DNA from: Eunapius fragilis
Lineage: Eukaryota > Porifera > Demospongiae > Spongillida > Spongillidae
Assembly: GCA_963681505.1 (NCBI GenBank)
Contig: OY811978.1
Span: 9,250,055-9,314,054 of the forward strand
Direction: 5' to 3'
DNA length: 64,000 nt
In this document: in pieces, positions 11,401-57,205 of the stretch
How the letters are laid out: each line of letters begins with the position of its first letter
Numbering within the stretch: position 1 is the stretch's first letter
Made by a program: the position numbers and the translations under genes
The notes under the pieces: model-generated
What the model saw: only the letters and a program-made list of their open reading frames with translations
What the model was told of the DNA's origin: nothing
The model's database searches: none

Positions 11401-13029
11401 TATATGTCAATGTTGTTGCACTCACTCAACTGCTGAATACATACGACCCAAGCAAGAAACTTTACATTGGACAGTGGTCTGGCTTGGGATTTCATTCACG
11501 GATTACAGTTGAGCTAATGCTACTAATATTATTGTCATAGTTGAATGCAATTTCATACTCTTCGTTCTAGACCTTGGGAAAAGGCTTAACAGATATTCCT
11601 GAGAGGGTTAGTTGACCATGCATATTACAAAGCTTTATTGATTAATGGTATTAAATTTAGAAACGTGATGACTTCAGATATGTCAGTGGTAACACCTACT
11701 GCATTAGCGATGCCCTGATGACTGAACTGGAGAAATATTTGAGGTGAGCTACAGGAATGGCCATTAATTTTCAGAAAGTGAACTTTCCCTATTAGATATA
11801 ATTATATATATATATATGGAACAGTGTCCAACCAAATCACCCTTGTGATACTTTGTCAAATTTTCCAGGACATGCAAAAGAAAAGTAATGCTCGCATTGA
11901 AATGAATTGGCTAATTATAAATTCAGTGTCTAATAACTTTAATAATGATAGTTCAATTTATGATGCATAAGGACGGACCATTTGATAGAAGCTCTTTGGA
12001 GTTCATGGAGAAATTTAAAAATTTGAAAACTTGAAAAACTTATCAGAAGGGTGATTTTGCTGGACACTGTTCCATATATGTATATATGGGACGGTGTCCA
12101 GCAGAATCACCCTTCTGGCTAGTTTTTCAAGTTTTCAAATTTTTTGATTTTCCTTGAACACCCATGAGCTTCTGTCAAATGGTCCTTACGCATCCTAAAT
12201 TGGACTATCCATCACAAAGTTATTAGGCACTGAATTTATAATTAGCCATATATTTCAATGCGAGCGTTACTTTTCTTTTGCTTGTTTTGGAAATTTTGAA
12301 AAAGCACCATAAGGGTGATTTAGCTGGACACTGTCCCATATATATATATATATATAATATATATATATAGTATGACAAATTGAAATGTAGCATTGGCTGA
12401 TGTAGTGGTGTATCTGTTCCTTTCAGCGGTGATAGGTTCGTAGACTCATGCAGAAAAGCTAAAGCTGAAATGGATGATGTAATGGTGGGAATTGCTGTTG
12501 GTAAGTAAGCCACATTAACACTTGTTGTAACATGTTATGTTTGAACATTACTTCAGAGGGTATTCTAGGCTATGACTTGGTGCAAGCAGATGCTATGAAG
12601 ACGGAATTGGAATATCACTATGAAAAGTTCAGCGAAAACGATTTAAAAGGATTTGCATCAGTTTCTCTTGGTCGTGTTGTAGTCCCTAATCCACAGTTTA
12701 AGGATGATATCACCAGGTATGCTGTACTTTATTGTAGAATTACCCATATTGAATACTTCCACCAAATTTGTACTCAGACTTCTCTCATACCACTGTCTGC
12801 TCTATCCAAAAGTATCATGGTGCAGTATGAAATAAGACTGAAAAATCTTATGATATTATTGTTTTTACACATTTTATGTTAGTGTATATACCAATTCTTC
12901 GTTCATATCAGCGATCAAGGGCACATGATTGAATTGCATGTGTTCCCATTGTATGATTCCTATGCAGGGTATAATATCCCAGTACCTATGCCTTCAGACC
13001 TCCTGCTGCACTTAGATAAAATGGGCTAA
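5445..13029 (+). CDS. Fringe-like beta-1,3-glycosyltransferase, copy A (10 exons)
   Basis: Exons: 5445-5596, 5802-6045, 8409-8466, 8721-8769, 8821-8895, 11375-11513, 11661-11743, 12427-12500, 12557-12716, 12912-13029. The phases join into one 383-codon frame ending in TAA. Residues 1-5 are cytoplasmic-like (MGMKR), followed by a signal-anchor around residues 6-24 and a stem. The catalytic region aligns by eye with the Fringe family (GT31): a TWLQTVNPDQV segment, NCPDA, then WYCHADDDIYVNVVALTQLL with the metal-binding DDD, YVSGNTYCIS in place of the family's GGAGFCIS, and MDDVMVGIAVG where Fringe has its PDD catalytic-base motif. Expected role: Golgi transfer of a sugar to O-linked glycans; donor and acceptor are not deducible. 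Start: the ATG at 5445 precedes the anchor; in-frame start codons at 5400 and 5451 are alternatives. Oddity: the exon 6 donor is GAG|CTAATG, so the real splice may be six bases earlier at ACA|GTTGAG, which keeps frame. Copy C is its near-identical paralog and copy B a pseudogene. Confidence 0.85.
6349..6550. mobile_element. MITE in intron 2 of copy A (AAAACATTCTCT family)
   Basis: It begins AAGTATTAAAAACATTCTCT and folds through AATAATAAGGAAAATGTAAT and its inverted counterpart. The right arm is degraded. The orthologous position in copy C (49166-49466) holds a longer member of the same insertion. A second, truncated left end starts near 6619. Confidence 0.6.
7740..7925. mobile_element. MITE remnant in intron 2 of copy A
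   Basis: The interior segment GAGAACAAGGTTGTGAGATA returns inverted as a cytosine- and thymine-rich arm ending CAACCTTGTTCCCTTC. The centre is ACTAAAATCATTTAGTCCAT, shared with remnants at about 20870-20950 and 50450-50530. The outer TIRs are degraded. Confidence 0.5.
9344..10526. mobile_element. hAT-like non-autonomous transposon with 8-bp TSD, intron 5 of copy A
   Basis: TAGGGTGTGTAACC at the left is inverted as GGTTACACACCCTA at the right. The flanks are TCCCAAAG (9336-9343) and TCCCAAAG (10527-10534). Block C has the uninterrupted site with a single TCCCAAAG at 52006-52013, proving insertion into A after duplication (or clean absence from C). The interior of about 1.18 kb has many ATCGGTTA-type sequences and no transposase. 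The 8-bp TSD fits hAT-type chemistry, but the family is not identified. Confidence 0.8.
11817..12074. mobile_element. MITE with TGGAACAGTGTCCA ends, intron 7 of copy A
   Basis: Ends TGGAACAGTGTCCA and TGGACACTGTTCCA lie within AT repeats. The interior is an imperfect hairpin containing AATCACCCTTGTG and AGGGTGATTTTGCTGG. It matches the element at 53262-53510 in copy C and is absent from copy B (about 23035-23045), where an uninterrupted ATATATATAG is seen. Confidence 0.7.
12087..12338. mobile_element. Second MITE of the same family, intron 7 of copy A
   Basis: Ends TGGGACGGTGTCCA and TGGACACTGTCCCA. It lies 12 bp from the previous element, in inverted orientation and with related interior sequence. 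Copy C lacks it, so it is a later insertion next to an existing one; the AT-repeat seems to be a preferred target. Confidence 0.7.
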
Positions 13030-24245: not shown

Positions 24246-25312
24246 CAGTGCCGTTGAGAGGGGGGGGGGGGGGGGGGGGGCAGGGGGGTAAGCTACCCCG
24301 GGCCCCGCGGAAAAAGGGGGGCCCCGCGATCCGTAAGAAAAAATTTGTTCGACAATTTTTCAATTCTGACTGCCAATGTAAATCCTTTTCGTGTTTCATG
24401 TTGACGCGCTTTTCACGCACAATTGCGAAAAAAATTTGTAATGGGAATATTATACTTTTAAATGGTTTTTGGCGATAAATAGAATTCCGCAATAGTCCTG
24501 TGTCAGGAAGCCAGTCAGGGCCACTTGTGAGATCCTGCATGGTCAGCATGTATAAATTCCAGTTGTTGTCTGATGAAGACTTGACTTCGGCTGTCACAAG
24601 TTTCTGCGCAATGTACAAGAATGACGTATCCAAAGAAATGGTGGAAGAGATGATGTTGTTAAAGAAGATCAGGCATACCAATCTTGGAGACGTACAGATG
24701 TCCCCTTTGCAGTTGCTGAACAAGCTGCATGACGTGCGCCTGGAATCTTTGTTCCCTAACGTTTGCATCAGCCTGCGGATATTTTGCACCTTGCCAGTCA
24801 CCGTGGCATCTGCAGGAAAAAGTTTTAGTCAATTGAAGCGAATAAAATCATACAGCAGATCAACAATGGCTCAGGAACGACTACAAGGCTTAGCCCTGCT
24901 TTGCATTGAATCCGAGTTAGCAAAGACAATAGATTACGATTCAATCATTGCCAATTTGCGTCCAGGAAGGATAGAAATTTAAGCGGCACTGTGAGTCTGT
25001 GCCGAGTGTGCATGGTGAAATCGCCGATTCGTTCATTGTAGTTATGATTCATTGAACATTATGCCATTGAACGTCCATAGCATTCAAGCTATTTATACTA
25101 TTGATTGGACCTTAATTTATTCATGTACTGTAATCGTGTCACTGCAATTTCATTTGTCGATTGATCAAAATTCACGGCCAGCTAGACGAAATTTAATGCA
25201 GATAAGTAATTTTAGTCCATTAATATTATTTATTTATTTTTAAAAAGTATTAAGGAGGGGGCCTCTCGTGAGAGTTATTACCCGGGCCCCAACCTGGCTC
25301 TCAACGGGCCTG
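24246..25312 (+). mobile_element. Internally deleted hAT transposon with 8-bp TSD
   Basis: Left end CAGTGCCGTTGAGAG and right end CTCTCAACGGGCCTG form hAT-like TIRs. They are flanked by AACTAAAA at 24238-24245 and AACTAAAA at 25313-25320. A poly-G run (24260-24280) sits just inside the left TIR. The interior keeps only the C-terminal transposase region. It inserted beside a Ty3/gypsy fragment. Confidence 0.85.
24500..24982 (+). pseudogene. hAT transposase C-terminal dimerisation region (5' truncated)
   Basis: A 160-residue frame ending in a natural stop. It contains LFPNVCISLRIFCTLPVTVA, SAGKSFSQLKRIKSYSRSTM, QERLQGLALLCIESELAKTI and DYDSIIANL, the conserved hAT dimerisation signature of ZMYM1/TTF-type transposases. 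The zinc finger and RNase H-like catalytic parts are absent. The first ATG is probably not a natural start. It lies inside the 24246-25312 element; a protein from it could at most dimerise with full transposases, which is inference. Confidence 0.8.
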
Positions 25313-27244: not shown

Positions 27245-28352
27245 ATGCTGCCTTCTCAGCTCTTATATACCCACGGTTTAGCAAGCAGATGGGTTTATGT
27301 GGCAAGAAACATTGGCCAACCGCTTGAAGAGTTATTTAGGACCAAATTTATCCCATCGCTCACTGGCCGTGCAGCACCATCTGATCTGGAGAGAGAGCTA
27401 CTAGCTCTTCCTGCTCGCTTAGGAGGCCTGGGCCTACTAAACCCTTCTCATCTCTCCACCACTGAGTATTCTGCTTTCATGAAAGTCACGCAACCTCTAG
27501 TAGACCATATCATAAAGCAGGATGAAAAATATGGATATGAGATCCTTCAAGATCAACAGTCTGCCAAAGCCGAAGTCCATAAATCCAAACGAGAACAGCA
27601 TTCAAATGCAGCTTCGACCCTAAAGGATACTCTTCCACCTTCTCTTGCACATGCCATGGACCTCTCCCAAGGAAAAGGTGCCTCCACCTGGCTTTCAGTT
27701 CTACCAACTGAAGAATATGGCTTTGCGCTCCATAAGGGAACCTTTCGTGATGCTTTGGCTTTATGTTATGGCTGGTGTCTCCACTAAAATGCCCTAAGGC
27801 GGGTATCCATCAATCAGACACAATGAAATTAGAGACTTAACAGCTGCTCTCTTGTCGGAAATGTGCCACAATGTGTCCACAGAGCCTCATCTACAACCCA
27901 TGACAGGTGAGGTCATGAGTGGACTCTCAGCGAATATCTAGGATGGTGCACGATTGGATATTGATATTGCAGCAGATGGATTTTGGGGGAGTCGGTTCGA
28001 ACGGGCATTTTTTGATGTAAAAGTTTTTAATCCTTACGCCCCCTCGAATCAAAAGACTCCTTTATCTGCATGCTACCGTAGCCATGAAAACGAGAAATAT
28101 GACCAATGCATCCGTGAAGTTGAACATGGCTCTTTCACTCCACTTATTCTCTCTTGCACTGGTGGCCTTGGGTCTCAAGCCACAACAAGCTATAAGCGTC
28201 TGGCCTCTCTGCTCTCTGCTAAATGGAACCAGGCCTATAGCCTAACCATCAGATGTGGTTGAGATGCCGCCTTGCCTACTCATTACTGCGAAGTTCAGTT
28301 ATGTGCATTCGAGGGGCACGCTCTCACCTTGGCCATTATATGTCTGCTACAT
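27245..28352 (+). pseudogene. Retroelement polyprotein C-terminus with PD-(D/E)XK-like nuclease motif
   Basis: Broken into at least three frames. The first part has FIPSLTGRAAPSDLERELLA followed by LPARLGGLGLLNPSHLS, a post-RT region. After a deletion near 27790-27805, which removes the expected Cys/His finger, a frame resumes with GGYPSIRHNEIRDLTAALLS. It is followed by LDIDIAADGFWGSRFERAFF and DVKVFNPYA, whose D...DVK pattern resembles a PD-(D/E)XK nuclease core, then by HGSFTPLILSCTGGLG. A final frameshift near 28262 leads to WLRCRLAYSLLRSSVMCIRG and a stop at about 28352. No catalytic RT residues remain. The exact retroelement class is not certain. Confidence 0.65.
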
Positions 28353-34950: not shown

Positions 34951-36239
34951 GCACAAATTGTTTTTATTATTAATCCTTTCAGATTCACCTCTGAATGCCA
35001 ACCCCCTTTGTCCAGGGAGCAAAATAACTTGTAAAAATCTGTGCAACAGTTGCTTCCATATTGCAGCTTCATTCTGATACTTCTGTGTAACTGCAGTGAA
35101 ATTGTGGCGCTGCATCCAATAACCTTTTGGAGATTTCTCCACGCAACATAACATCTTTTATGATTCATGCTTTCTTGACGTTCGGGAATCTTAACGTATT
35201 GCTTTTTCCACTTGTTATCCTTAGAATAGCCAGTTGATAAAGCTAGTAAAGAGCAATTCACCGGTAAAGAGCCGACAAGGAAAGCAAAATAATGCTTGTT
35301 TGCTTTTGCTCCAGACTGGCCAATCACGATGAACGTCTTCTCCGTTTGGCAGTTTATAATGTTTATAACACTGAAGAGAAACTGGGAACGCTCTGTTGGA
35401 AGAATCTTTAGAAAATTGTAGCGGAAGCATTTCAGAATCTCTTCTAACAGAGCTTCTTCTATACTTCTTCCCTTGTGGGCACATCTCCCTTGATGAAGAT
35501 TCCTATATCAACACCGACTACCTCGATAATATAGTTTTGTTTTCTGCTGCCATGCACTAAAGCCTCATCATGCATGGATTACCAGGCCTTCGATCGATCC
35601 TTTAACAGCAGCATCTGGTTCTGATCGAGGCACCTCTTATTGAATCTCAAGGTCTTCTTCACTCAATACTTCAATAGCAATATCGCAATGTGATTGGAGT
35701 TATAATGTAATACGATTCTATGCAACTGACAATCTCTTTATTTCCACTCCAAACACATATACATATAGGAATACACACTGGCTTTAAATAGTGTTTCTTA
35801 AACATCCCTTGACCCCCTATTCCACGTATGACAGGAAGTTCAGTCCACAAAGGGTTTAAGGGTCTATTCAGAGTCTTGCTGTCTATCATATTGCTTCCGC
35901 ACTAGGCTGCACACTAGTACTGCTGCATTGATTCTTCTCACGGTCGGTTCCCTCACTGTCTTCTGTTACATCAAAGCCATGTTGTTGAAGCGTATTCTGT
36001 CCTCAGTTTGACTCCTTCAGCACGCATTGCCTTTTCTTTTCTGGGCGCCTGATTTATGATGGTAGCTCATTCTCGATCCCGCTCGTTAAATAGGAAGTGT
36101 AAATCAGTCATTCAAAACGCTGTGATTGGTTATAACAGACTGGGCCCCGAAGCTCTCGGAACGACCTGCCTAGGCCCCTTGTGGACAAGCCATTCGTTAC
36201 CGGGCGTGCCTAGGTGACCAGTCTAAGAAGGCCCGGGCC

Positions 36240-37787
36240 TGTCACGAAATATTTGGTCCGGGTCAAAATTTGGTCCGGCCGGACCACATACTTGGTCCGC
36301 CCCCGCCACGAGCGGTCCTACGCGCATGCATTTATAAATGTGAAAGCACATGTATTTGCGTCAGAAAATACTAGAGAGATGTAAACAAAGACCTGGTCGT
36401 CTTTACTTGAGGGGGTATTCTGAATACCAACAACGAAAAAAAGAGTCACCACACAACCTGTATGTTTCACTTTAATCACCATCAACCTCTGATACATTAC
36501 TTTGTCCATCTCCTGACATGGATCACCTGCATTAGGTACCCCATGCATCACCATGATCAGCTAGCTGCGTCTCTATCACCTACAAACGATGAGCCTATAC
36601 ATTAGCTTTTTCTTAATTCCTAGCTAGCTATGGCTACTGCAATGGATGCAACATGATTACAACATGATTACAACATGATTACAACATGATTACAATTAAA
36701 CTGCATGTACTGCAAGAACTTCAGTATTCATCAAGAAGCCTAAGCATTCTCCATGCAGAATTTTTTCCTTGGGAGGGAACTTAATTTAAACAAAGTGCAA
36801 TACTTTTTTGTTGCTAAACTGATGTGAAAAAATAGTAATAATAAATAGAACTGTACCATGCATGTCGATTACCAATTAAAGGAGAAAGTAGTTATGTTCC
36901 TCTGCATGGCTAGGAAAGATGAAGTCCAACACTGCATGGGTATCATGGGGCTGACAACAGAAGATAATAAAATGACTACAATTAAAGTGCATGGCGATCA
37001 GATTGTAGACGCTGGTCAGAATCTTCATATACAAGGGCTTGATGATGATGAAGTATACATGACTATATGATTGTGCATCAGGTGATGCAACTAGCTCACT
37101 GCATATTGCAAACATTGTTTGCACTCCATCCATGTAAGCCAGGTTATGATGACTGTGAGCTATTTGCAATGGCATCTCCTATACGTTGTTGGCTAAAGGA
37201 GTATACATGTAGCTCGTCTATGACTAAAGGCAGTGAGGAAGCAATTGGTTGGAAACCTTGAGAAGCAAAATATTACTGCATCTCCAATACAAAAGATCGC
37301 GATCGATAAGACACCGTGGATCAATCAAAATTGAGGCATGCACTGATGAAGATTGCCAAAATTGGAAGGAATTAAGTGAATTCATGCAGTTATTGTGCAT
37401 GCATGGAACTGTACGGTTTATGTGTCAATATCTTCAGCTTCCCAACAACAGTGGGTTTGTGTCTTGAATCCATTCACATGCATACTGCATCAGTGCACTG
37501 ACCGATTTATTTTGCATGCATGCATGTTATCACGCATGTTTCACTTTTAGCAATAGTTGAAGTAATATAGGATATTGTATACGGTAGCAACATTAGGTCC
37601 CGGACCAAATATCGCTGCCACATTTGGTCCGGGACCAAATATGGCAGCCATATTTGGTCCTGGGGCGGACATAATATGTCATGGTGGGACCGAATATGGC
37701 AGCAACATTATGTCCGGTAGGACCAAATGTGGCTGCCATAATTGGTCCGCCGGACAATTTTTGGGTAGGACATTTTGTACCGTGACA
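36240..37787 (+). mobile_element. Ginger-like element 1, degenerate
   Basis: Starts TGTCACGAAAT and ends ACCGTGACA; GGCC flanks both sides (36236-36239 and 37788-37791). The left 60 bp has GGTCCGGCCGGACC-type motifs. The right 190 bp has about eight GGTCC/GGACC motifs separated by AAATATGGCAGCC-like spacers. The interior keeps a frame with GYDDCELFAMA, which may be a decayed Ulp1 catalytic-cysteine box (compare SDCGLYAIA in element 3). A 12-bp ACATGATTACAA repeat lies at about 36647-36695. Confidence 0.7.
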
Positions 37788-38123
37788 GGCCCCTTCGTGG
37801 CTAGTCTCGTACCCAGACCCAGATTTTCACAGCAGCGGATGGATTACATCACCGCTACGTGAAAAGTGGGTCGGGGAAAATGCTCGAGTCTAGTCGTTCT
37901 GAGTGCGCCTCATGGCGCACAATCAGAGTGCAGAGCACCTGTGACGTCACGTTTGGTGCTGCATTAATTACATTAACTCGTAATTATGGCAAACGACGAT
38001 CTTTATGCTGTTATCCTACGTGCCGGGGCAAGATTGGGCTACACAGCAATTCGTCCACAAAGCTGTAAAAAGCTTTATATAAGGAAGCGACGTGTTTATC
38101 AGCCTTCCGACTGGGAGTGGAAG

Positions 38124-38261
38124 CAGTGGCGTAGCGAGGGGGTGGTAGGGGGAGACATGTCCTCGGACGCAGGGTTGAGAGAGCGCCGAAATAGACGAGA
38201 GATAAATCATTATCGCGTCAACGAGAACTCACGAACGCATGGGCAGATACGGGGTGCAGGA

Positions 38262-38301
<40 letters not shown>

Positions 38302-38494
38302 GTAAACCCGTTCATATAAGGCTCCTCCCCTTCCCTCCTTTCCGCTAGGTACCGTCCCCCCCCCCCCCCCCTTTTCGTATCGGGTCAGAAGCCGACAGCA
38401 CCCTCCTCCTCCTCCTCCTCCCCCCCCCCCCCCCCCCCCCGACGCCATTAGTGCATTATGACCCCGGGCGCTCAACAATCACACTACGCCACTG
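38124..38494. mobile_element. hAT-like MITE bisecting the RecQ Walker A codons
   Basis: CAGTGGCGTAGCGA at the left and TACGCCACTG at the right are classic hAT-like ends. AGTGGAAG (38116-38123) and AGTGGAAA (38495-38502) form an 8-bp TSD with one mismatch. It contains a 36-G run (38264-38299), C runs at 38356-38371 and 38420-38440, and a (CTC)n stretch. Removing it restores the CCGACTGGGAGTGGAAAGTC run, encoding PTGSGKS. Confidence 0.85.
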
Positions 38495-38587
38495 AGTGGA
38501 AAGTCGTTATGTTACTCTGTATTGCCATTCGTTTTTGACAGCCTCTACCAACGTGTTGGTAGCATCGTTATAGTTGTATCACCTTTG

Positions 38588-38765
38588 ATTACCTTAATGA
38601 AAGACCAGGTACGCAGATTGCATGCCGCTCAGTTACAGCTGCAAATTAAATTGATTGCCTTAATGAAAAGACCAGGTACGCAGATTGCATGCCGCTCAGT
38701 TACAGCTGCAAATTAAATTGATTGCCTTAATGAAAGACCAGGTACGCAGATTGCATGCCGCTCAG
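38588..38765 (+). repeat. ~71-bp tandem triplication within the RecQ fragment
   Basis: The unit runs from CCTTAATGAAAGACCAGGTA through GCATGCCGCTCAGTTACAGC to AAATTAAATTGATTG. The middle unit has one extra A in the GAAAAGACC run, so the frame is lost. The inverted right arm (about 39440-39470) has a single unit, so the triplication occurred after the inversion. Confidence 0.8.
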
Positions 38766-38934
38766 CCTCGTGTTTGGAGAAAGCAACACAGACCTTCTGG
38801 CTACACACAATAGCTGCAAATTGGCCATCACAGGATAAGATCTTTGTTGATAACTCTTTTACTCCTGCATGAATTGCATAACATGAGCTACTGTGACTAA
38901 TTCCATGAACTTCTTACAAGCTGTGAGATTTTTG

Positions 38935-39232
38935 GTGACAACATTCCTCTGGTTGATGATAGTCCGCAGCTGAAATTAGTGCATGTCCCTCCCTCCATTG
39001 CTGAGCGAGACTTGAACAGCCTCCCCCATGTCATCTACATAAAATACATTCATAGGTATAAACTGCTAATCCCTTTCTCAAGCCTAGTGCACACATAAAA
39101 CATCTTGGTACACCACATTTCTTCACAGATTGTGTCTAGGACCTCCCTTTCTCATGCCTGCTTATATAGTGCACACCTAACACTATATACACATACCTTA
39201 ATCTAAACTGAGGAATGTTGTGGATATGTCAC
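38935..39232. other. Spacer of the RecQ inverted duplication
   Basis: About 300 bp of single-copy sequence between the two arms, with an internal short duplicated CTAGTGCACACATAA / ATAGTGCACACCTAA motif. No gene. Confidence 0.5.
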
Positions 39233-39730
39233 CATGCAAAAATCTCACAGCTTGTGAGGAGTTCATGGAATTAGTCACAGTAGTTCATGCTATATCAGCT
39301 GCAGGAGAAAGAGACATAAAAGAGTTATCAACAAAGATGTTATCCTGTGATGACCAATTTGCAGCTATTGTAAAGACACTGTGTAGCCAGAAGGTCTGTG
39401 TTGCTTTCTCCACACACGAGGCTGAGCGGCATGCAATCTGCGTACCTGGTCATTCATTAAGGCAATCAAAGGCGATACAACTATAACGATGCTACCAACA
39501 CGTTGGTAGATCGGAGGCGTCAAAAACGAATGGCAGTACAGAGTAACAAAACGACTTTCCACTCCCAGTCGGAAGGCTGATGAACACGTCGCTTCCATCT
39601 ATAAAGCTTCTTACAGCTTTGTGCTGGTTTGGACGAATTGCTGTGTAGCCCAATCTTGCCTCGGCACGTAGGATAACAGCATAAAGATCATCATTTGCCA
39701 TAAGTAGGCGATACCAAGTTGATTTCATGT
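39233..39730 (-). pseudogene. RecQ-like helicase fragment, right arm (inverted)
   Basis: On the - strand, from about 39728: MKSTWYRLLMANDDLYAVIL, then RLGYTAIRPNQHKAVRSFID and FISLPTGSGKSFCYSVLPFV (intact Walker A). After a frameshift, IVIVVSPLIALMNDQVRRLH follows (motif Ia), then a loop-proximal region also found inverted in the left arm. The remaining helicase motifs are absent. The 5' leader is separated from its terminus (42060-42247) by the insertion at 39707-42077. Confidence 0.75.
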
Positions 39731-40023
39731 TTCTCGGACAGTTGGACCAAAAAATGTGACCAGGTCACCGGGAAAAAAAAAAAAGTTAAATGAATACTAT
39801 AATTACATGTGTGAATATGATATTAAACAATCCGCAAGCGCATGCGTACTTACAACGCTTGCACATGCAAAGGTTACTACATATACATGGCAAATGAGCA
39901 CTGCAAAACTTTTCGTGGAATGACAATAATACACCACATTTCACTACAACACTGATCCATCCACGAGGACATATACTGACGATACTCAGTAGACAAGGGG
40001 CTGCAGCCAAGAATACAGTTGCT

Positions 40024-40576
40024 GGCATAAGTACAGTTTAGGTTCCGTAATAGAAATTCATTACAGTACTAAGATTTCGTGGCCAAACAGTTAGTTTAGA
40101 CATTCTGAACCCTACGACGGCGAACAAATGCTATTTTACCGTGAGGTTTATCTCTAACACAAACAGTAATGAACACTTACAGTAATGAGCGTTTCATTTT
40201 TCGCCGGTACTGGTCCACACCCCTCTTGTAAATTCTCGTTCTAGCTGGGCCTAGTTTAGGTTCAGTGTAAGGGGGGATAAGTACATTGGCTTCAGGGTTA
40301 GGGTTAGAAAGTTGGGGGAAGCCAATGTACTTATCCCCCTTACACTGAACCTAAACTAGGCCCAGCTAGAACGAGAATTTACAAGAGGGGTGTGGACCAG
40401 TACCGGCGAAAAATGAAACGCTCATTACTGTAAGTGTTCATTACTGTTTGTGTTAGAGATAAACCTCACGGTAAAATAGCATTTGTTCGCCGTCGTAGGG
40501 TTCAGAATGTCTAAACTAACTGTTTGGCCAGTACTGTAATGAATTTCTGTTACGGAACCTAAACTGTACTTATGCC
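40024..40576. mobile_element. 553-bp foldback element with near-full-length arms and 8-bp TSD
   Basis: GGCATAAGTACAGTTTAGGT begins the left arm and the right arm ends with its exact reverse complement. The arms are about 260 bp and almost identical; the centre near 40290-40315 contains GGGTTAGGGTTAG. CAGTTGCT flanks both sides (40016-40023 and 40577-40584). Confidence 0.9.
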
Positions 40577-40723
40577 CAGTTGCTGTATTAAACTTCTAAC
40601 AATTGAAGTGGCACTATTGTGTGCATCAACAATAGCGGCGTGCGCAGTGCTTGGTTCACCGCGTATAAAAATTATAGATGACACACCCCTAATATGAATA
40701 ACATTTATATTTTTTCCTTGAAC

Positions 40724-42018
40724 TGTCCCGGCAAAACCAGTCCTACCTAAAAGTGGTCCGGGCGGACCACTTTTGGTTGCCAAAAACGGTCCGCCCGGAC
40801 TGAAATGGGCTGCCAAAAGTGGTCCGACCTTGCCAAAAGTGGTCCACCGTCCGGACCACTTTTGGTTGCCGAAAAAGGTCCGCCTGGACTGAAATGGGCT
40901 GCCAAAAGTGGTCCGATCTTGCCAAAAGTGATCCACCGTCACGACCAATCGTTATACGCTTATTTCAAGTGCATTAATATTAATAGCAAAATTCCAATCA
41001 CTTATAATTCAAAATGATTCAATGATGCAAACTTCATTGACAGTCACTACAGCACTGCACCATTGGCTTGCCATCATTAGGCAAGCGACAAGAACAGTGA
41101 ATAGATATACTTTCACACTTTTCTACATACTTTGCCCTTTTCCGTATGGGATTGCTTGGAAACATAGAACATGTTTTGGTTTCAAGACACTTTATCAGGT
41201 GGGATCTCATTTTTTCTTGCTCGAAACGAACAGTGGTCGGGTCAATCCCACAGCAAAGGCTTAATGCAAAAGCAATTACAAAGAGTCCACAGTCATGCAC
41301 TGCCTTCTTTTTGCCATTGCACATCACAGTATTTCACGAATATTTCATCACTTGATGATTTCATAACGTATGCCACTACTTTCTTCAACTCATTGCTCAG
41401 CTTCAAATGCATAGAATCATACACATTTATACTTGATGTTGAACATCCTATAGTTGACACTGTTATCCAGTGATTGTTGTTCAAATTCAAAATTTGGATA
41501 AATTCTTTCTGACATGGCTCCATGCTCAAATTTACGGCAAGAAGAGGGTTCTGAAGACCCTAGAGCCGAATTAAAAACAAAAACCATGTCGATCAACAAA
41601 GAAAGCAGCAGTTCAAAGCACTTTGTCCTAGCCTCACCTTTCCTTTGCTCATCTTTTTGAAAAATAGTTCTCCGTTCTTTAAGACAAATTTCGCTGCTTT
41701 TCTTCTGATGCATCGCTTTCGCCCTTCACTTGCGCCAGCTGGGTAACTTTTGGGTAACTTCTGGGTAACTTCTCCTCAGGTACAGGTAAGCCTCTTCAAC
41801 CAAGTTTTCCTTCACTTCATCCTCGTCAGTACTCGACATTTTGCTCGCAAGGTTCTTCCACGTGTTTGAGGCTATAGAACTACCAATACGCACGCGCGGA
41901 CTGGTTTTAGTCATACCGGACAATTATTGGCACCAAAATTAGTCCGGCCGGACTAATTTTGGCGACCTAAATTGGTCCGGCCGGACCAATTTTTTCCCGG
42001 ACCGAAATTTTCGTGACA
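40724..42018 (-). mobile_element. Ginger-like element 2 with Ulp1/zinc-finger cargo
   Basis: Starts TGTCCCGG and ends TTTTCGTGACA; GAAC flanks both sides (40720-40723 and 42019-42022). About 200 bp of the + strand left end carries eight or more GGTCCG/CGGACC motifs spaced by AAAAGT and GGGCTGCC. The right end has GGTCCGGCCGGACC twice. The coding part is on the - strand. The integrase core is absent. Confidence 0.85.
41034..41529 (-). pseudogene. Ulp1-like (C48) cysteine protease and partial zinc finger of element 2
   Basis: Catalytic His in NNNHWITVSTIG, Asp in SINVYDSMHL, and Cys in DCGLFVIAFALSLCCG are all present, in the order and spacing of Ulp1-type proteases. A one-base shift near 41300 separates His/Asp from Cys. 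Downstream, CSCRLPNDGKPMVQCCSDCQ starts a PHD-like C-x-C...C-x2-C finger that is cut short by a stop. Upstream frames (41923-41726 and 41713-41417) are acidic or lysine-rich and lack recognisable integrase. The parent protein was probably a Ginger-type integrase with C-terminal protease and PHD. Confidence 0.75.
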
Positions 42019-42059
42019 GAACTTCATTTCAAATGACCCGCCGCGTCCGAGAAACATGA

Positions 42060-42250
42060 AATCAACTTGGTGTCGCCTTACGATAAATAATGCAGCACCA
42101 AACGTGACGTCACGGGTGCTCTGCATTCTGATTGTGCCCCTTTTATGAGGCGCACTCAGAACGACTAGACTCGAGCATTTTCCCAGACCCACGTAGCGGT
42201 GATGTAATCCATGCGCTGCTGTGAAAATCTGGGTATGGGTACTTCGTGAC
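42060..42250 (-). repeat. Outer terminus and leader of the right RecQ arm
   Basis: Inverted match to 37808-37975: CCCAGACCCACGTAGCGGTG, then CATTTTCCC, GAACGACTAGACTCGAG and ACGTGACGTCACGG. It establishes that the RecQ arms extend outward to the same terminal sequence on both sides. Confidence 0.75.
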
Positions 42251-42659: not shown

Positions 42660-43279
42660 ACCTTAATTGGTTAAATACCAACGTACGTACGCGTAACTCA
42701 TTTATATACTCGGGCCTAATTGGCTGCTAGGTATGTACGCGTACCTAGCAACCAATAGGAACGACCACCTCCCAAAAAAAAAAGTACATTGCAACGCGTA
42801 CTTAGCGACCGCGCTTGCCACAAAACCTACATGGGCATATGGCTGTACAGGCCATCACAATTAAAGCAAAGCTATTGTGGTGGTTCACTCTCAAGTCTCA
42901 TAGTACAGGCCGAAAACATGTAGTTACTAATAATTGTATTGCGCGGGCATGTTATAATGGTTGCGTAGTAACCGTATGCTAGAACAGGTGGTAAATAATC
43001 AGCCCGTGATTTTTCACGGGTGCAAGCTAGTAATAAATACTATAATTTCCAACGTACGTCCGTCCGTACGACCGCGTAACTTAATTATATACTCGGCCTA
43101 GCGCCTATTGGTTGCTAGGTACGCGTACCTAGCAACCAATAGGAACGACCACCTCCCACGCAAACGTATTCAGTAACGCGTACTTAGCGACCATGCTTAC
43201 CACAAAACCTACATGCCTGTACAGGTAATAATGTCATCACATGCAGTAACATTGAAGCAACGCTATTGTGGTGGCCCGG
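42660..43279 (+). repeat. Two-unit tandem repeat (about 270 bp), second unit split by element 3
   Basis: Unit 1, about 42669-42940, and unit 2, about 43048-43279 continuing at 45008-45050, share CCAACGTACGT, TATATACTCGG, CTAGCAACCAATAGGAACGA, CCACAAAACCTACATG, GCTATTGTGGTGG and CTCAAGTCTCAT. Unit 1 shows the unoccupied GTGGTGGTTCACTCTCAAG site, an internal control for the insertion of Ginger-like element 3 in unit 2. Confidence 0.8.
43104..43143. repeat. 40-bp perfect palindrome
   Basis: Left arm CCTATTGGTTGCTAGGTACG is followed immediately by its exact reverse complement. The matching place in unit 1 (about 42716-42757) is imperfect with extra bases in the centre. Confidence 0.9.
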
Positions 43280-43564
43280 TGTCACAGGATTATGCGTCCC
43301 CCCGGATTATGCGTCCGGCCGGACTCGTGGTCCTAGGATACGGAGTCCCCCCTTAGGATAGGCAGTCCCCCCATTGCCCCTCATCGAACCGAGGTAGTTA
43401 AGCCTAGTAATTACTGTTATCTGCTTGTACACGTCCTTCTCACTCTTTCAATGAATGGGTACTTTTTTGGATAGGTCTACATGTATAGCTATTAACTATA
43501 GCTGAAGCACGTTGCTTACATTACGTTGTTCCTGATGGGAGAATGACGCAAGTGCTAGATCCAC

Positions 43565-43860
43565 GTGCTGTTACGAGGCATCGTCATGGCTGAAAAGAGT
43601 GCACAAGAGAAGCTGTTTTACAAAGACGCGTTGAAGTATTTGACGATGAGGTCATACAGAGAGAAAGCTGAAAAGCAATGGAAGAGGACGATTCCGCAGG
43701 AAAGCGCAAGATTTCACAGCAGTCAACGATGGTCAGTTGTATATTAAGGGGAAGAATGGCCAGGAAGCCAGACGTTGGGTTTTCGATGAGGAAGATCAAA
43801 AATGAGTGATGGAGGCTTGCCACGATGACAACCTAGGTAATCGGCCATTGAGTCTAATAC
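43565..43860 (+). pseudogene. Integrase N-terminal stub of element 3
   Basis: After MAEKSAQEKLFYKDALKYLT-like sequence, a shifted frame reads LYIKGKNGQEARRWVFDEED then QK, a stop, and VMEACHDDNLG. The HDDNLG box precedes the zinc-binding H2C2 and core domains in Ty3/gypsy-like and Ginger integrases. Here it is followed at once by the protease region, so the DDE core has been deleted. This links the element to an integrase-type transposase. Confidence 0.6.
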
Positions 43861-43867
43861 ACAGTGG

Positions 43868-44308
43868 TTGGATGATGCTGTAATTAATGCTTCTCAATAT
43901 CTTCTCCACAGTCAGTATGGTATATCGGGATTACAAGCAACAACACTTGGATACCACCTAACATTTGACATCATGAGAAAGGACTTCGTACAATTTCTTC
44001 ATAATGGAGAAGACCATTGGCTAACGATCTCTACCCTTGGATTGCCATCAGGTCATGTAAACATCTATGACAGACTGTGCATGTCAGACTGTACTGATCA
44101 TGCCATAGACCAAATGTGCTCCATTATTTTCACCCCTAACAATGCTGTGTACCTCCACTTTACTGATGTTGACAAACAGACCAACAGCTCAGACTGTGGC
44201 TTGTATGCCATTGCTTATGCTACTGGGTTATGTTGTGGTGAAGATGTATGTTCCAGAAAATATGACATGATGGTCATGTGGCAGCATCTATTGAAAGTGG
44301 AAGAATGA
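43868..44308 (+). CDS. Ulp1-like (C48) cysteine protease domain of element 3
   Basis: A 146-residue frame, with WLDD immediately upstream of and overlapping its ATG (WLDDAVINASQYLLHSQYGI, a helix typical of Ulp1-like proteases in transposons). The catalytic triad is complete: His in GEDHWLTISTLG, Asp in HVNIYDRLCM, Cys in SSDCGLYAIAYATGLCCG; the Gln of the oxyanion hole is probably in DKQTNSS. Ulp1-type enzymes cleave SUMO or related modifiers; what this one cuts is unknown. A one-base shift at the end separates it from the zinc-finger frame that overlaps its last ten codons. Either the gene is slightly broken or a frameshift is used. Confidence 0.7.
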   Translation: MDDAVINASQYLLHSQYGISGLQATTLGYHLTFDIMRKDFVQFLHNGEDHWLTISTLGLPSGHVNIYDRLCMSDCTDHAIDQMCSIIFTPNNAVYLHFTDVDKQTNSSDCGLYAIAYATGLCCGEDVCSRKYDMMVMWQHLLKVEE

Positions 44309-44535
44309 CTGCATTTCCTAGTTCAGATAGAGAAAACCATCATATTGTGGCCAATAAGATGATTAAAGTGAAGTGCTACTGCCTATTGCCAGATTCTGGA
44401 GTAATGATTCAATGCAGTTCTTGCAAAGAATGGTTTCACAAGAAATGTGACTCCTCTATACCCCGAAAGGCCTGGAGCAACTTAAAATGCAAATGGCACT
44501 GTAAAATGTGCCATTCTGTACCTTTAATCAACTGA
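44278..44535 (+). CDS. PHD-like zinc finger of element 3
   Basis: An 85-residue frame. The core is KCYCLLPDSGVMIQCSSC, then KEWFHKKCD and CKWHCKMC, fitting the C4-H-C3 pattern of a PHD finger (C-x-C, C-x2-C, H-x4-C here H-K-K-C, C-x2-C). Such fingers read histone tails in other proteins. It is joined to the protease domain in element 2 as well, so it is probably the C-terminus of one ancestral protein. The displayed start ATG is unlikely to be real. Confidence 0.65.
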   Translation: MAASIESGRMTAFPSSDRENHHIVANKMIKVKCYCLLPDSGVMIQCSSCKEWFHKKCDSSIPRKAWSNLKCKWHCKMCHSVPLIN

Positions 44536-44775
44536 TCATGAACTATCAATGTATACGTCAATTCATAAGCACAAACTAGCTCATTTATTCATCAGCATAT
44601 ACTATGTGCATGCAATTCCGTGTATCAACGGATATCATGCATCTCGATATAGTAAAATGAAAACAATTATACTCTGAGCTGAATGCGTTGTGTATAGGAC
44701 AGTAAATAATATTCAAAGAACAAGACACTGAAATAGGTGCTACGAATCTGTTTCATTTCTGTTTTGTGGTTTTAG

Positions 44776-44845
44776 CCATTTATACTGCATATGTATATCC
44801 TATAAGACTGCAGCCTTATAGGATATACATATGCAGTATAAATGG
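44776..44845. repeat. 31-bp-arm perfect hairpin inside element 3
   Basis: CCATTTATACTGCATATGTA and on to CTATAAG is followed by ACTGCAGC and the exact inverse. It lies about 240 bp after the zinc-finger stop, possibly a foldback relic within the element. Confidence 0.85.
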
Positions 44846-45059
44846 GGGAGGGGGACCGCTAGTTCTAAGGGGGGACATGATATCCTAGGATACGTTGTCC
44901 GGCCGGACATTGTATCCTAGTACTGGGCGTCCGGCGGACTCCGGGTCCTAGGATACAATGTCCGGCCGGACAATTTTTAGGGGGGACGCGTAGTCCTGTG
45001 ACACCGGTTCAGTCTCAAGTCTCATCGTACAGGCCGAGAACATGTTGTTATATGCACAT

Positions 45060-51200: not shown

Positions 51201-54182
51201 TGAACTAATCATTGTAATAATTACACAATCACCCATTATCCAATGACTAGCATTGCTCAATGAGTTAAATTAAGCTAAGAAACATGAAGGACACTTAAGT
51301 ATCCAGGCATCATATCAAATCTGTAGCAATTATCAAACGTGTTTATGTTATGCATAATACTCAACTCACCACATCTGCAGGTTACCACATTGTACCATCA
51401 AACTGCCCGGATGCAAAAGCTCATGATGTGTAAGGAATGTAAAATATTGTTACATAGCTGCTGACTGTCCCACTCCATAGGCTGATGATGTGTTGTAAGT
51501 CTGGACGTCAATTTGAGCATTACTACCTGGCCAGGAAGGCTGGCAAGATGTACAAGTGAGTCTCATTCGGACAGGATGCTGTTGGTCATTTTCCCTGTAC
51601 TGTAATGCAAACCCAATGTATACTTAATGGGGTCACTGTTGAACATAAACTAAACTCACCATCCAAAGGAGTGGGGGACTTGTACTACAGAATTGTTCCT
51701 TGGTTCGTGTTAGAACGGTTCGGGAACTCTTTCACATTGCTCTACGGCAGAGGGTCAAGGGTGTGGCTACATGAGATAATTATGGTTCACATGACACAAT
51801 ATTAATATTGTGAAGAATGATGGATTACGTGCAATTTTGAAAGCGATTGTTGGGCACAGAGAGGATGAAAGAGGCAATATGAAGATTGTACAAAAAGTGA
51901 TGAAAAAAATTAGGAGACAACAAAACGAAGCCTGATGGCTTTGATTTGATTAGATGACTTCTTTATTTCATTTGAATCTTGCAGCATATTCTGTATAACA
52001 CCTCATCCCAAAGTTAATGAACTACTGTGTCCGCACACCATCATGATAAAGTTATAGTGTAATTATTAATAGTTACACACTTTTGAGAACACTTTTAGCA
52101 CGGTTGTGTTCACACAAGCGGAAGAACTGTTCTGGAGCGTTCTCAGACATGGTCCATTTGGTGTTCTGTTCTAGACCAGAATGGCACTGATTGGTACGCG
52201 TTCACACTATATCAAAGAATGGTTAGAATGTTCGGAACCTTTCTATTGCGGTAGAGTGAATGCAGTATTAGTACTGAGTTTTACTACAGTGCAAAATCAT
52301 GGAGGTACAGAAGATACTTGTTGGGTATGAAAGGTTAAGATGTAAATTGAGACACAATTCTATGGTTTAATTTGTCTGACAAATCAATAGCAGTAGAGAC
52401 TTGAGCCTTATTAGTTAAAACATTCACTTTGTATGGTGGTAAGATTTATTATGTTCAGGTCAGTACTACTCTAATAGTTTTTCCATACTTTTATATGGTG
52501 CAATGCCATAGAAACATTCAATTGATCCCTCCCAACAGTTGGTACTGCCATGCTGATGATGACATATATGTCAATGTTGTTGCACTCACTCAACTGCTGA
52601 ATACATACGACCCAAGCAAGAAACTTTACATTGGACAGTGGTCTGGCTTGGGGTTTCGTTCACGGATTACAGTTGAGCTAATGTTATTAATACTATTGTC
52701 ATAGTTGAATGCAATTTCATGCTCTTCGTTCTAGACCTTGGGAAAAGGCTTAAAAGATATTCCTGAGAGGGTTTGTTGACCATGCATATTACAAAGCTTT
52801 ATTGATTAATGGTATTAAATTTAGAAGCGCGATGACTTCAGATATGTCAGTGGTAACACCTACTGCATTAGCGATGCCCTGATGACTGAACTGGAGAAAT
52901 ATTTGAGGTGAGCTACAGGCTTGTATTCTTTTATAGAATGGCCATTATTTCTCAGAAAGTGAACTTTCCCTATTTGATAGATATATGGAACGTTCCATGA
53001 CAAAATGAGACTTTTGGTAGTTCAATAAAATATTCAGGGCAAGCAAAAGAAGTTGACCATTGCCATTGATATGTACGTCTAATTAAAAATTCAGTGCTTT
53101 ATTTCTTCATGACGAAATGTCCAACTTTGAGTGTGTAATAGCTGTTTTGCAGAAGATGTTAGTATTAAGTAAAAAAAATTTAAAAATTGAAAACTTGAAA
53201 AAATACCCACAAGTCTCATTTTGTCATAGAATGTTCCATATATATGTATATTATATATATATGGAACAGTGTCCAACCAAATCACCCTTGTGATACTTTT
53301 TCAAATTTTCCAGGACAAGCAAAAGAAAGTAACGCTTGCATTGAAATGTATGGCTAATTATAAATTCAGTGCCTAATAACTTTATGAATGATAGTCCAAT
53401 TTATGATGCGTAAGGACCATTTGATAGAAGCTCTTTGGTGTTCACGGAGAATTTAAAATTTGAAAACTTCAAAAACTACCAGAAGGGTAATTTTGCTGGA
53501 CACTGTCCTATATATAGTATGACAAATTGAAATGTAGCATTGGCTGATGTAGCAGTATATTTGTTCCTTTCAGCGGTGATAGGTTCGTAGACTCATGCAG
53601 AATAGCTAAAGCCGATATGGATGATGTAATGGTGGGAATTGCTGTTGGTAAGTAAGCCACCTTAACATCTGTTGTAACATGTTATGTTGAACATTACTTC
53701 AGAGGGTATTCTAGGCTATGACTTGGTGCAAGCAGATGCTATGAAGACGGAATTGGAATATCACTACGAAAAGTTCAGCGAAAACGATTTAAAAGGATTT
53801 GCATCAGTGTCTCTTGGTCGTGTTGTAGTCCCTAATCCACAGTTTAAGGATGATATCACCAGGTATGCTGTACTTTATTTTAGAATTACACATATTGAAT
53901 ACTTCCACCAAATATGTACTCAGACTTCTCTCATACCACTGTCTGCTCTATCCAAAAGTATCATGGTGCAGTATGAAATAAGACTGAAAAATCGTATGAT
54001 ATTTTTGTTTTTACACATTGTTAAATATGATTAGTGTATATTACCAATTCTTCGTTCATATCAGCAATCAAGGGCACATGATTGAATTGCATGTATTCCC
54101 ATTGTATGATTCCTGTGCAGGGTATACTATCCCAGTACCTATGCCTTCAGACCTCCTGCTGCACTTAGATAAAATGGGCTAA
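48281..54182 (+). CDS. Fringe-like beta-1,3-glycosyltransferase, copy C (10 exons)
   Basis: Exons: 48281-48426, 48623-48866, 51069-51126, 51381-51429, 51481-51555, 52539-52677, 52825-52907, 53574-53647, 53703-53862, 54065-54182. The frame is continuous for 381 codons plus stop. It starts at MKRFTSLLLLVVFSFIVVTF, lacking the two residues before it in copy A because nine bases (CATATAATG) are missing; this leaves a single plausible ATG. The order of elements is as in copy A: signal anchor, stem, NPDQVRIITEES, DDD metal site in WYCHADDDIYVN, YVSGNTYCIS, MDDVMVGIAVG, and C-terminal LLLHLDKMG. Differences from A are few and mostly conservative (for example CRIAKADM for CRKAKAEM). Exon 6 again lacks GT at the position used in copy B; ACA|GTTGAG six bases earlier keeps the frame. 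Predicted Golgi enzyme. It should be expressed from its own altered promoter. Confidence 0.85.
49166..49466. mobile_element. MITE in intron 2 of copy C (AAAACATTCTCT family)
   Basis: AAGTATTAAAAAACATTCTC at the left and GAGAATGTTTATATTACTTG at the right. The hairpin centre contains a duplicated TATAGGACTATT-CATTTTCCCTTATTAT segment not present in copy A's version. Confidence 0.75.
52986..53238. mobile_element. MITE with TGGAACGTTC ends, intron 7 of copy C only
   Basis: TGGAACGTTCCATGACAAAA at the left mirrors TTTTGTCATAGAATGTTCCA at the right. It is absent from A and B, and adjoins the next element across an AT repeat. Confidence 0.7.
53262..53510. mobile_element. MITE with TGGAACAGTGTCCA ends, intron 7 of copy C
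   Basis: Counterpart of 11817-12074 in copy A, hence present before the A/C duplication but missing in B. Confidence 0.7.
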
Positions 54183-57079: not shown

Positions 57080-57205
57080 TGTCACGAAAATTTTGGTCCG
57101 CCGAAAATTATGGTCCCGGACCAAAATTTTTTGGAAAAAATTGGTCCGGGCGGACCAATATTATCAGAAAATTTTGGTCCGGATAAGTAAAAATTGGTCC
57201 GGGCC
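57080..57205 (+). mobile_element. Ginger-like element 4, left terminus
   Basis: TGTCACGAAAATTTTGG begins directly after block C sequence GAGTAC. The next 120 bp holds GGTCCGCCG, GGTCCCGGACC, GGTCCGGGCGGACC and two more GGTCCGG motifs. No matching CGTGACA end was found downstream in the window, so the element is truncated or its end has been lost. Confidence 0.7.

Follow-up and report, generated by a model that had tools for sequence, protein, structure and literature searches.

Internally deleted copies of three Ginger1-type transposon families in a sponge genome appear to differ in their target sites

Three insertions in a 64,000-nucleotide stretch of the Eunapius fragilis genome (C8:9250055-9314054; hereafter the window) are best explained as non-autonomous, internally deleted copies of three Ginger1-type transposon families, which would have spread in trans and whose lineages would have their own targets; we put the probability of this explanation as a whole at about 0.93. 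The insertions, given the working names E1, E2 and E3 (Table 1), were compared with the genome from which they come (219 Mb in 24 contigs). Longer relatives of all three carry the integrase core that the window copies lack, and the E3 lineage appears to favour CCGG while the E1 and E2 lineage appears to favour GGCC-like palindromes, so that two related groups of elements show mirror-image four-letter targets.

Results

Ends and duplications

The boundaries were read directly from the window as GGCC/TGTCACGAAA...TACCGTGACA/GGCC for E1, GAAC/TGTCCCGGCA...TTTCGTGACA/GAAC for E2 and CCGG/TGTCACAGGA...TCCTGTGACA/CCGG for E3. The original prediction of three elements with TGT...ACA ends and 4-bp target site duplications (TSDs) was exact in both coordinates and ends. 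Among copies in the genome with both ends located, which were picked from search lists and are not a random sample, identical flanking 4-mers were present at 40 of 47 places; because about 1 in 256 would be expected per copy, the duplications are not a product of chance. By family, matching 4-mers were seen in 12/17 copies for E3, 15/15 for E1, 11/12 for E2 and 2/3 for an E2-like group. All seven rows without matching 4-mers were counted as misses, including two (C12:2429815 and C12:883257) whose ends were fixed by a shortened match and not by the true tip and one (C8:5655913) with an end extrapolated by two bases.

The long relatives of E1, E2 (in gene orientation) and E3 all start with TGTCA, in agreement with a TGTNR 5' end. 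The terminal inverted repeats are about 72 bp in E3 and were aligned over 25-103 in E2; E1 is without a long co-terminal inverted repeat, since no more than about 8 bp line up at its tips and its subterminal repeats are offset, and in this it is unlike Ginger1, whose repeats are about 40-270 bp. GTCCGG or CCGGAC hexamers occur 7 to 10 times per element in the six elements counted, as against 0.16-0.29 once these stretches are shuffled, and all of them fall inside the terminal 250 and 350 bases. These subterminal (G)TCCGG arrays are likely to be transposase binding sites.

Table 1. Positions of the elements and related features within the window
Feature	Position	Strand	Remark
E1, internally deleted copy of second family	36240..37787	+	Full-length relative 3985 bp at C20:4496604-4500588
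E1 left TSD, GGCC	36236..36239	.	
E1 right TSD, GGCC	37788..37791	.	
E2, copy of third family with internal deletion, gene on minus strand	40724..42018	-	Full-length relative 4231 bp at C1:8065851-8070081
E2 left TSD, GAAC	40720..40723	.	
E2 right TSD, GAAC	42019..42022	.	Element-free single tetramer in 10/10 fetched paralogues
E2 N-terminal (YPYY region) remnant	41596..41923	-	
E2 remnant of Ulp1 and of the beginning of PHD, frame broken	41049..41559	-	Deletion junction at 41558/41559
E3, internally deleted Ginger1 copy, 1724 bp	43280..45003	+	Full-length relative 4129 bp
E3 left TSD, CCGG	43276..43279	.	
E3 right TSD, CCGG	45004..45007	.	
HDDNLG, start of H2C2 zinc finger, stub	43821..43838	+	
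E3 deletion junction, about 2.1 kb removed	43847..43848	+	Same in window copy and seven fetched siblings
E3 Ulp1 (C48) protease remnant	43979..44305	+	Frame breaks ahead of PHD
E3 remnant of PHD-finger stretch	44275..44532	+	Another frame
Lone 5' end of Ginger1 type, GGTCCGG repeats in subterminal position	57080..57205	+	No partner end found

Longer relatives

DNA searches of the genome with E1, E2 and E3, in which the best 40 candidates were scored for each so that counts are lower bounds, showed that each window element aligns with both end parts of longer elements elsewhere. One longer relative was read per family. That of E3 (C21:4112369-4116497; TSD TAGG) is a master element of the predicted kind, with an integrase DDE core between the HDDNLG box and Ulp1, and the long E1 and E2 relatives have the core as well. 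The extra 2.1 kb of the E3 relative sits at E3 position 568/569, directly after the HDDNLG stub. It contains what the stub lacks of the H2C2 finger (Pfam E = 1.8e-18) as well as the integrase core, for which the rve match (32.3 bits) falls 0.3 bits short of the cut-off of 32.6; behind the integrase come Ulp1 (C48, 5.6e-07) and then a PHD finger (4.7e-05, just below its cut-off). For E1, at least eight relatives, 3931-4346 bp long, have both ends flanked by matching 4-mers, and the one that was translated contains H2C2, integrase pieces, GPY, C48 and PHD. The E2 relative has the same domain order on the opposite strand. The coding pieces of E1 and E2 look intron-split, among other places just before NGLVERF.

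Across the three families, Peptidase_C48 was above the Pfam cut-off in all, and PHD was present in all and above the cut-off only in E1. Integrase_H2C2 was above the cut-off in E1 and E3, the E2 finger being recognised by eye, and the rve pieces were below the cut-off throughout; the D, D and E positions can be seen both in the translated sequences and in the alignment. By eye, the GPY/F motif reads GPY in E1, GPF in E2 and GTY in E3, and the YPYY region has YP and FY/FF in E1 and E2 and YR in E3. No reverse transcriptase or gag was found in the 13 translated stretches scanned; about 0.8 kb in the middle of long E1 lies outside these stretches. In the long E2 protein (L070:2010-4019), a cysteine-rich stretch that resembles CXC separates integrase from Ulp1 and matched no Pfam model at E 0.01.

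Deletions and coding state of the short copies

The integrase core is absent from all three window copies, as had been predicted. In E3 the deletion took away the rest of H2C2, the DDE core and everything onward to just before Ulp1. The same junction is common to the window copy and L010-L016; eight copies share it, and therefore one deletion arose and then spread. Deleted copies were probably mobilised in trans by the transposase of intact relatives.

It had also been proposed that the short copies form a protein-carrying lineage. As proteins, the window copies are broken: the E1 remnant has several stops, the E2 remnant has a frame change, and the Ulp1-PHD stretch needs two or more frames in 7/8 of the shared-deletion E3 copies, that is, in the window copy and six of its seven fetched siblings. 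The exception is L011 (C6:9020374-9022071), where a single open frame of 234 codons spans all 187 residues of the Ulp1-PHD query with 93% identity. Because this one sibling is open through Ulp1 and PHD, the claim for the deleted copies as a lineage is weak rather than refuted.

It is unlikely, in our view, that the retained Ulp1 and PHD parts of deleted copies still give a useful protein, such as one that helps or represses the intact transposase. The open frame of L011 would fit such a role, as would the finding that all three window copies are without the core yet keep pieces of the C-terminal part. Against it stand the broken frames just described and the condition of L011 itself, whose PHD has WFRKKC in place of WFHKKC (histidine to arginine); its frame is kept open by a one-base loss and a four-base gain together. 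Relative to the full-length reference, the eight shared-deletion E3 copies have 2-3 synonymous and 7-12 non-synonymous codon changes. The related L012-L015 have at most a slight third-position excess, and 0/9 other E3-family sequences compared with the reference L020 were open throughout. A second, more distant Ulp1-PHD match (35-44%) lies beside an E3-family copy at L023:355-883 and belongs to another Ginger-like or related element.

Target sites

After copies with the same flanks were dropped, 36 independent sites were left (12 for E3, 14 for E1 and 10 for E2 with E2-like). The mean match to CCGG, out of 4, was 3.33 for E3, 0.21 for E1 and 0.10 for E2 with E2-like, against a window background of 0.82; the mean match to GGCC was 0.17, 3.14 and 2.60, respectively, against the same background of 0.82. 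Not one of 100,000 label shuffles reached the difference between E3 and E1/E2. The TSDs of the 12/17 matching E3 copies comprise six CCGG, one CCGT and five others that are one or two letters off, and 0/24 independent E1/E2 sites are CCGG, CCGT or ACGG. The E1 preference extends to a G before and a C after the tetramer (11/14 each), giving GGGCCC. The E3 lineage thus appears to favour CCGG and the E1 and E2 lineage GGCC-like palindromes. For Ginger1, Bao et al. (2010; PMC2836005) give TSDs of CCGG in 75% and CCGT/ACGG in 24%, with a legend that names 112 Hydra Ginger1 elements. A literature search at title and abstract level, with Repbase outside its scope, found no Ginger1 that targets GGCC.

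This contrast could have come from the local sequence in which copies survive rather than from a preference of the transposase. The flanks are somewhat GC- and CpG-rich, with a GC content of 0.468 and a CpG ratio of 0.99 for E3 and 0.455 and 0.77 for E1 (20 flanks each) and 0.452 and 1.03 for E2 (2 flanks only); the controls, which were unmatched, gave 0.402 and 0.62 (window 1-36000) and 0.452 and 0.52 (loci L001-L008). However, the opposite palindrome is matched below background in every group, which composition alone should not do, and we regard survival in particular local sequence as a quite improbable source of the contrast, less probable even than a use for the retained proteins. The E3 flank CpG ratio, set against 0.52-0.62 in the two unmatched controls, would fit insertion near CpG-rich DNA, a weak suggestion.

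Empty sites

Exact empty sites exist for the E2 insertion. The joined flanks of E2 match paralogues that run through the junction, and all ten that were fetched are without the element and have a single tetramer (GAAC in 4, GTAC in 5 and GAGC in 1). Three E2 copies at C9:8238642, C9:7937601 and C9:3019373 have the same 8-bp flanks on both sides and are likely duplications of one insertion within one contig.

The neighbouring unit at 42669-42940 had been taken as an empty site for E3. The unit is indeed free of the element, yet it is no exact empty site: relative to the occupied unit with one copy of the duplication removed, it is missing five bases, CCGG included. Ten further fetched paralogues of the E3 site are missing eight bases at the junction, again with CCGG among them, and an exact pattern with CCGG at the junction had no match in the genome. 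The E3 site is therefore five to eight bases longer than its paralogues, and the tandem unit was rejected as an exact empty site; the flank is a repeat, for which the best 40 of 728 candidates were scored. For E1, among the matches listed for the joined flanks, none runs through the junction.

Class and relationships

The original prediction placed the three insertions in the Ginger1 class, which the H2C2, DDE core, Ulp1 and PHD of the long relatives support, and in one family, which we reject: their DNA is similar only in short stretches, and over zinc finger and DDE core the integrases are 63% identical between E1 and E2 and 44-46% identical between E3 and either of these. They form three families. 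Like them, Ginger1-9_HM of Hydra (PMC2836005) has TGT ends, a 4-bp TSD, an integrase with H2C2 and DDE, Ulp1 with PHD, and introns, and its length of 3,758 bp compares with about 4 kb for the long relatives here. Ginger1 elements carry OTU or Ulp1 at the C-terminal end, some of them together with PHD, and all three families have Ulp1. In the same source Ginger1 shares the CCGG target of E3 and is unlike E1 and E2, with their GGCC-like sites. E3 has CCGG and most other Ginger1 features, with GPY/F and YPYY altered; E1 and E2 are without CCGG, and the description that suits them best is that of Ginger1-type elements whose target has changed.

In a tree with eleven integrases from the same genome, which were called Gypsy from long frames, the branch uniting E1, E2 and E3 had a support of 99.5/99 and that uniting E1 and E2 a support of 96.4/98; six of eight genome integrases, near-identical to L001 or L008, were excluded from this tree, and all eight were in a first tree. 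The placement in Ginger1 is based on features and on this tree against same-genome integrases, with the alignment made up of these and no reference Ginger1 protein.

It is very improbable that the elements belong to Ginger2/Tdd. Ginger2 resembles E1-E3 in its integrase-type transposase, its TGT ends and its 4-bp TSD in animals, but, according to PMC2836005, it targets the AT-rich RTATAY and is without YPYY and GPY/F; the targets here are GC-rich palindromes, and by eye E1 and E2 have YP..FY/FF and GPY/GPF. Ginger2 membership was rejected.

Least probable of all is that the elements derive from Gypsy LTR retrotransposons, as solo LTRs or as fragments. Such retrotransposons likewise have an integrase core, TG...CA ends and short duplications, and their integrases abound in this genome; the identity of the E1, E2 and E3 integrases is 36-42% with nine of the eleven local ones and 27-32% with the other two. 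Against this origin, the ends of E2 and E3 are inverted and not direct repeats, the elements are about 4 kb long and carry Ulp1 and PHD, neither LTRs nor, in the stretches scanned, reverse transcriptase or gag were seen, and the tree sets E1, E2 and E3 on a branch apart from all eleven. When the genome was searched with the E2 integrase segment, most of the best 150 of 4397 candidates were frames with 38-44% identity, and many of the frames are long, in keeping with the close relationship between Ginger1 and Gypsy described in the literature.

The lone end and a fourth family

A fourth end had been noted at position 57080. The end, which reads GTAC/TGTCACGAAAATTTTGGTCC, is real, but neither a partner nor any protein similarity was found behind it: a downstream scan for two right-end strings carrying its duplication, a BLAST search with the three right ends and a comparison of the E1, E2 and E3 family proteins with the downstream sequence all gave nothing. 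A complete fourth element at this position was rejected.

A fourth family was found at C1:12692057-12695601. In the DDE pieces it matches E1 and E2 with 51-62% and E3, where there are intron gaps, with 27-34%, and by similarity it is nearer to E1 and E2 than to E3. Its candidate TSD, GGCC, comes from a scan that itself required matching 4-mers and is one of four candidates, the end pair having been chosen as the only one tipped by TGTCAC and GTGACA. The family gave no match to Ulp1 or PHD. A stretch of the full-length E3 between integrase and Ulp1 (L020:850-1266) is 39% identical to part of the fourth family and had no Pfam match at E 1; on this similarity it is a conserved region.

Other features of the window

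E3 lies inside the second of two tandem copies (42669-43279) of a repeat unit with many relatives genome-wide. Within E3, 44776-44845 is a near-perfect palindrome of 2 x 35 bp (97%), at the position of which full-length E3 has roughly 355 bp of different sequence, with relatives at 11803-12373 and 52978-53516 of the window; the palindrome is probably a collapsed nested insertion. E2 is inserted within a nested foldback-like repeat (37793-42250) with long inverted arms, in which 37809-37970 pairs with 42084-42242 and pieces of 37974-38934 pair with 39237-39713, and in which 40080-40275 and 40335-40530 form a perfect pair of 196 bp. The poly-G and poly-C tracts at 38259-38440 are long and may be assembly-sensitive. 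Open reading frames at 24500-24982 and 27245-27787 resemble, by eye, what we take to be a hAT C-terminal dimerisation region and a reverse transcriptase end.

Discussion

Our results suggest how such copies may arise and spread. In the longer copies, a YPYY-like region, H2C2, a Gypsy-type DDE core, a GPY/F-like motif, Ulp1 and PHD are encoded across separate exons or frames. The most likely binding sites of the transposase are the subterminal (G)TCCGG arrays, and it would act at the TGT...ACA ends, which are observed, to excise the element; joining to target DNA with a 4-bp stagger would then leave the 4-bp duplications seen at the insertions. Intact relatives probably supplied this transposase to the deleted copies. 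The target would depend on the lineage, being CCGG for that of E3 and GGCC-like palindromes for that of E1 and E2.

Retrovirus-like integrases are usually weakly selective for target sequence. We consider it probable that one Ginger1 clade switched its target from CCGG to GGCC through limited changes in the integrase. The nearest PHD fingers by sequence are those of Spp1, PHF2 and PHF8 for E3 and of PHF2, PHF23 and PHF8 for E1. Several of Spp1, PHF2 and PHF8 are readers of H3K4me3, and by this resemblance the transposon PHD may add chromatin tethering.

Sister clades with opposite four-letter palindromes within one genome, both of them represented by many copies with clear duplications, form a natural comparison in which to look for the residues that determine the choice of target. 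Annotation should not make CCGG a condition for calling Ginger1-type elements.
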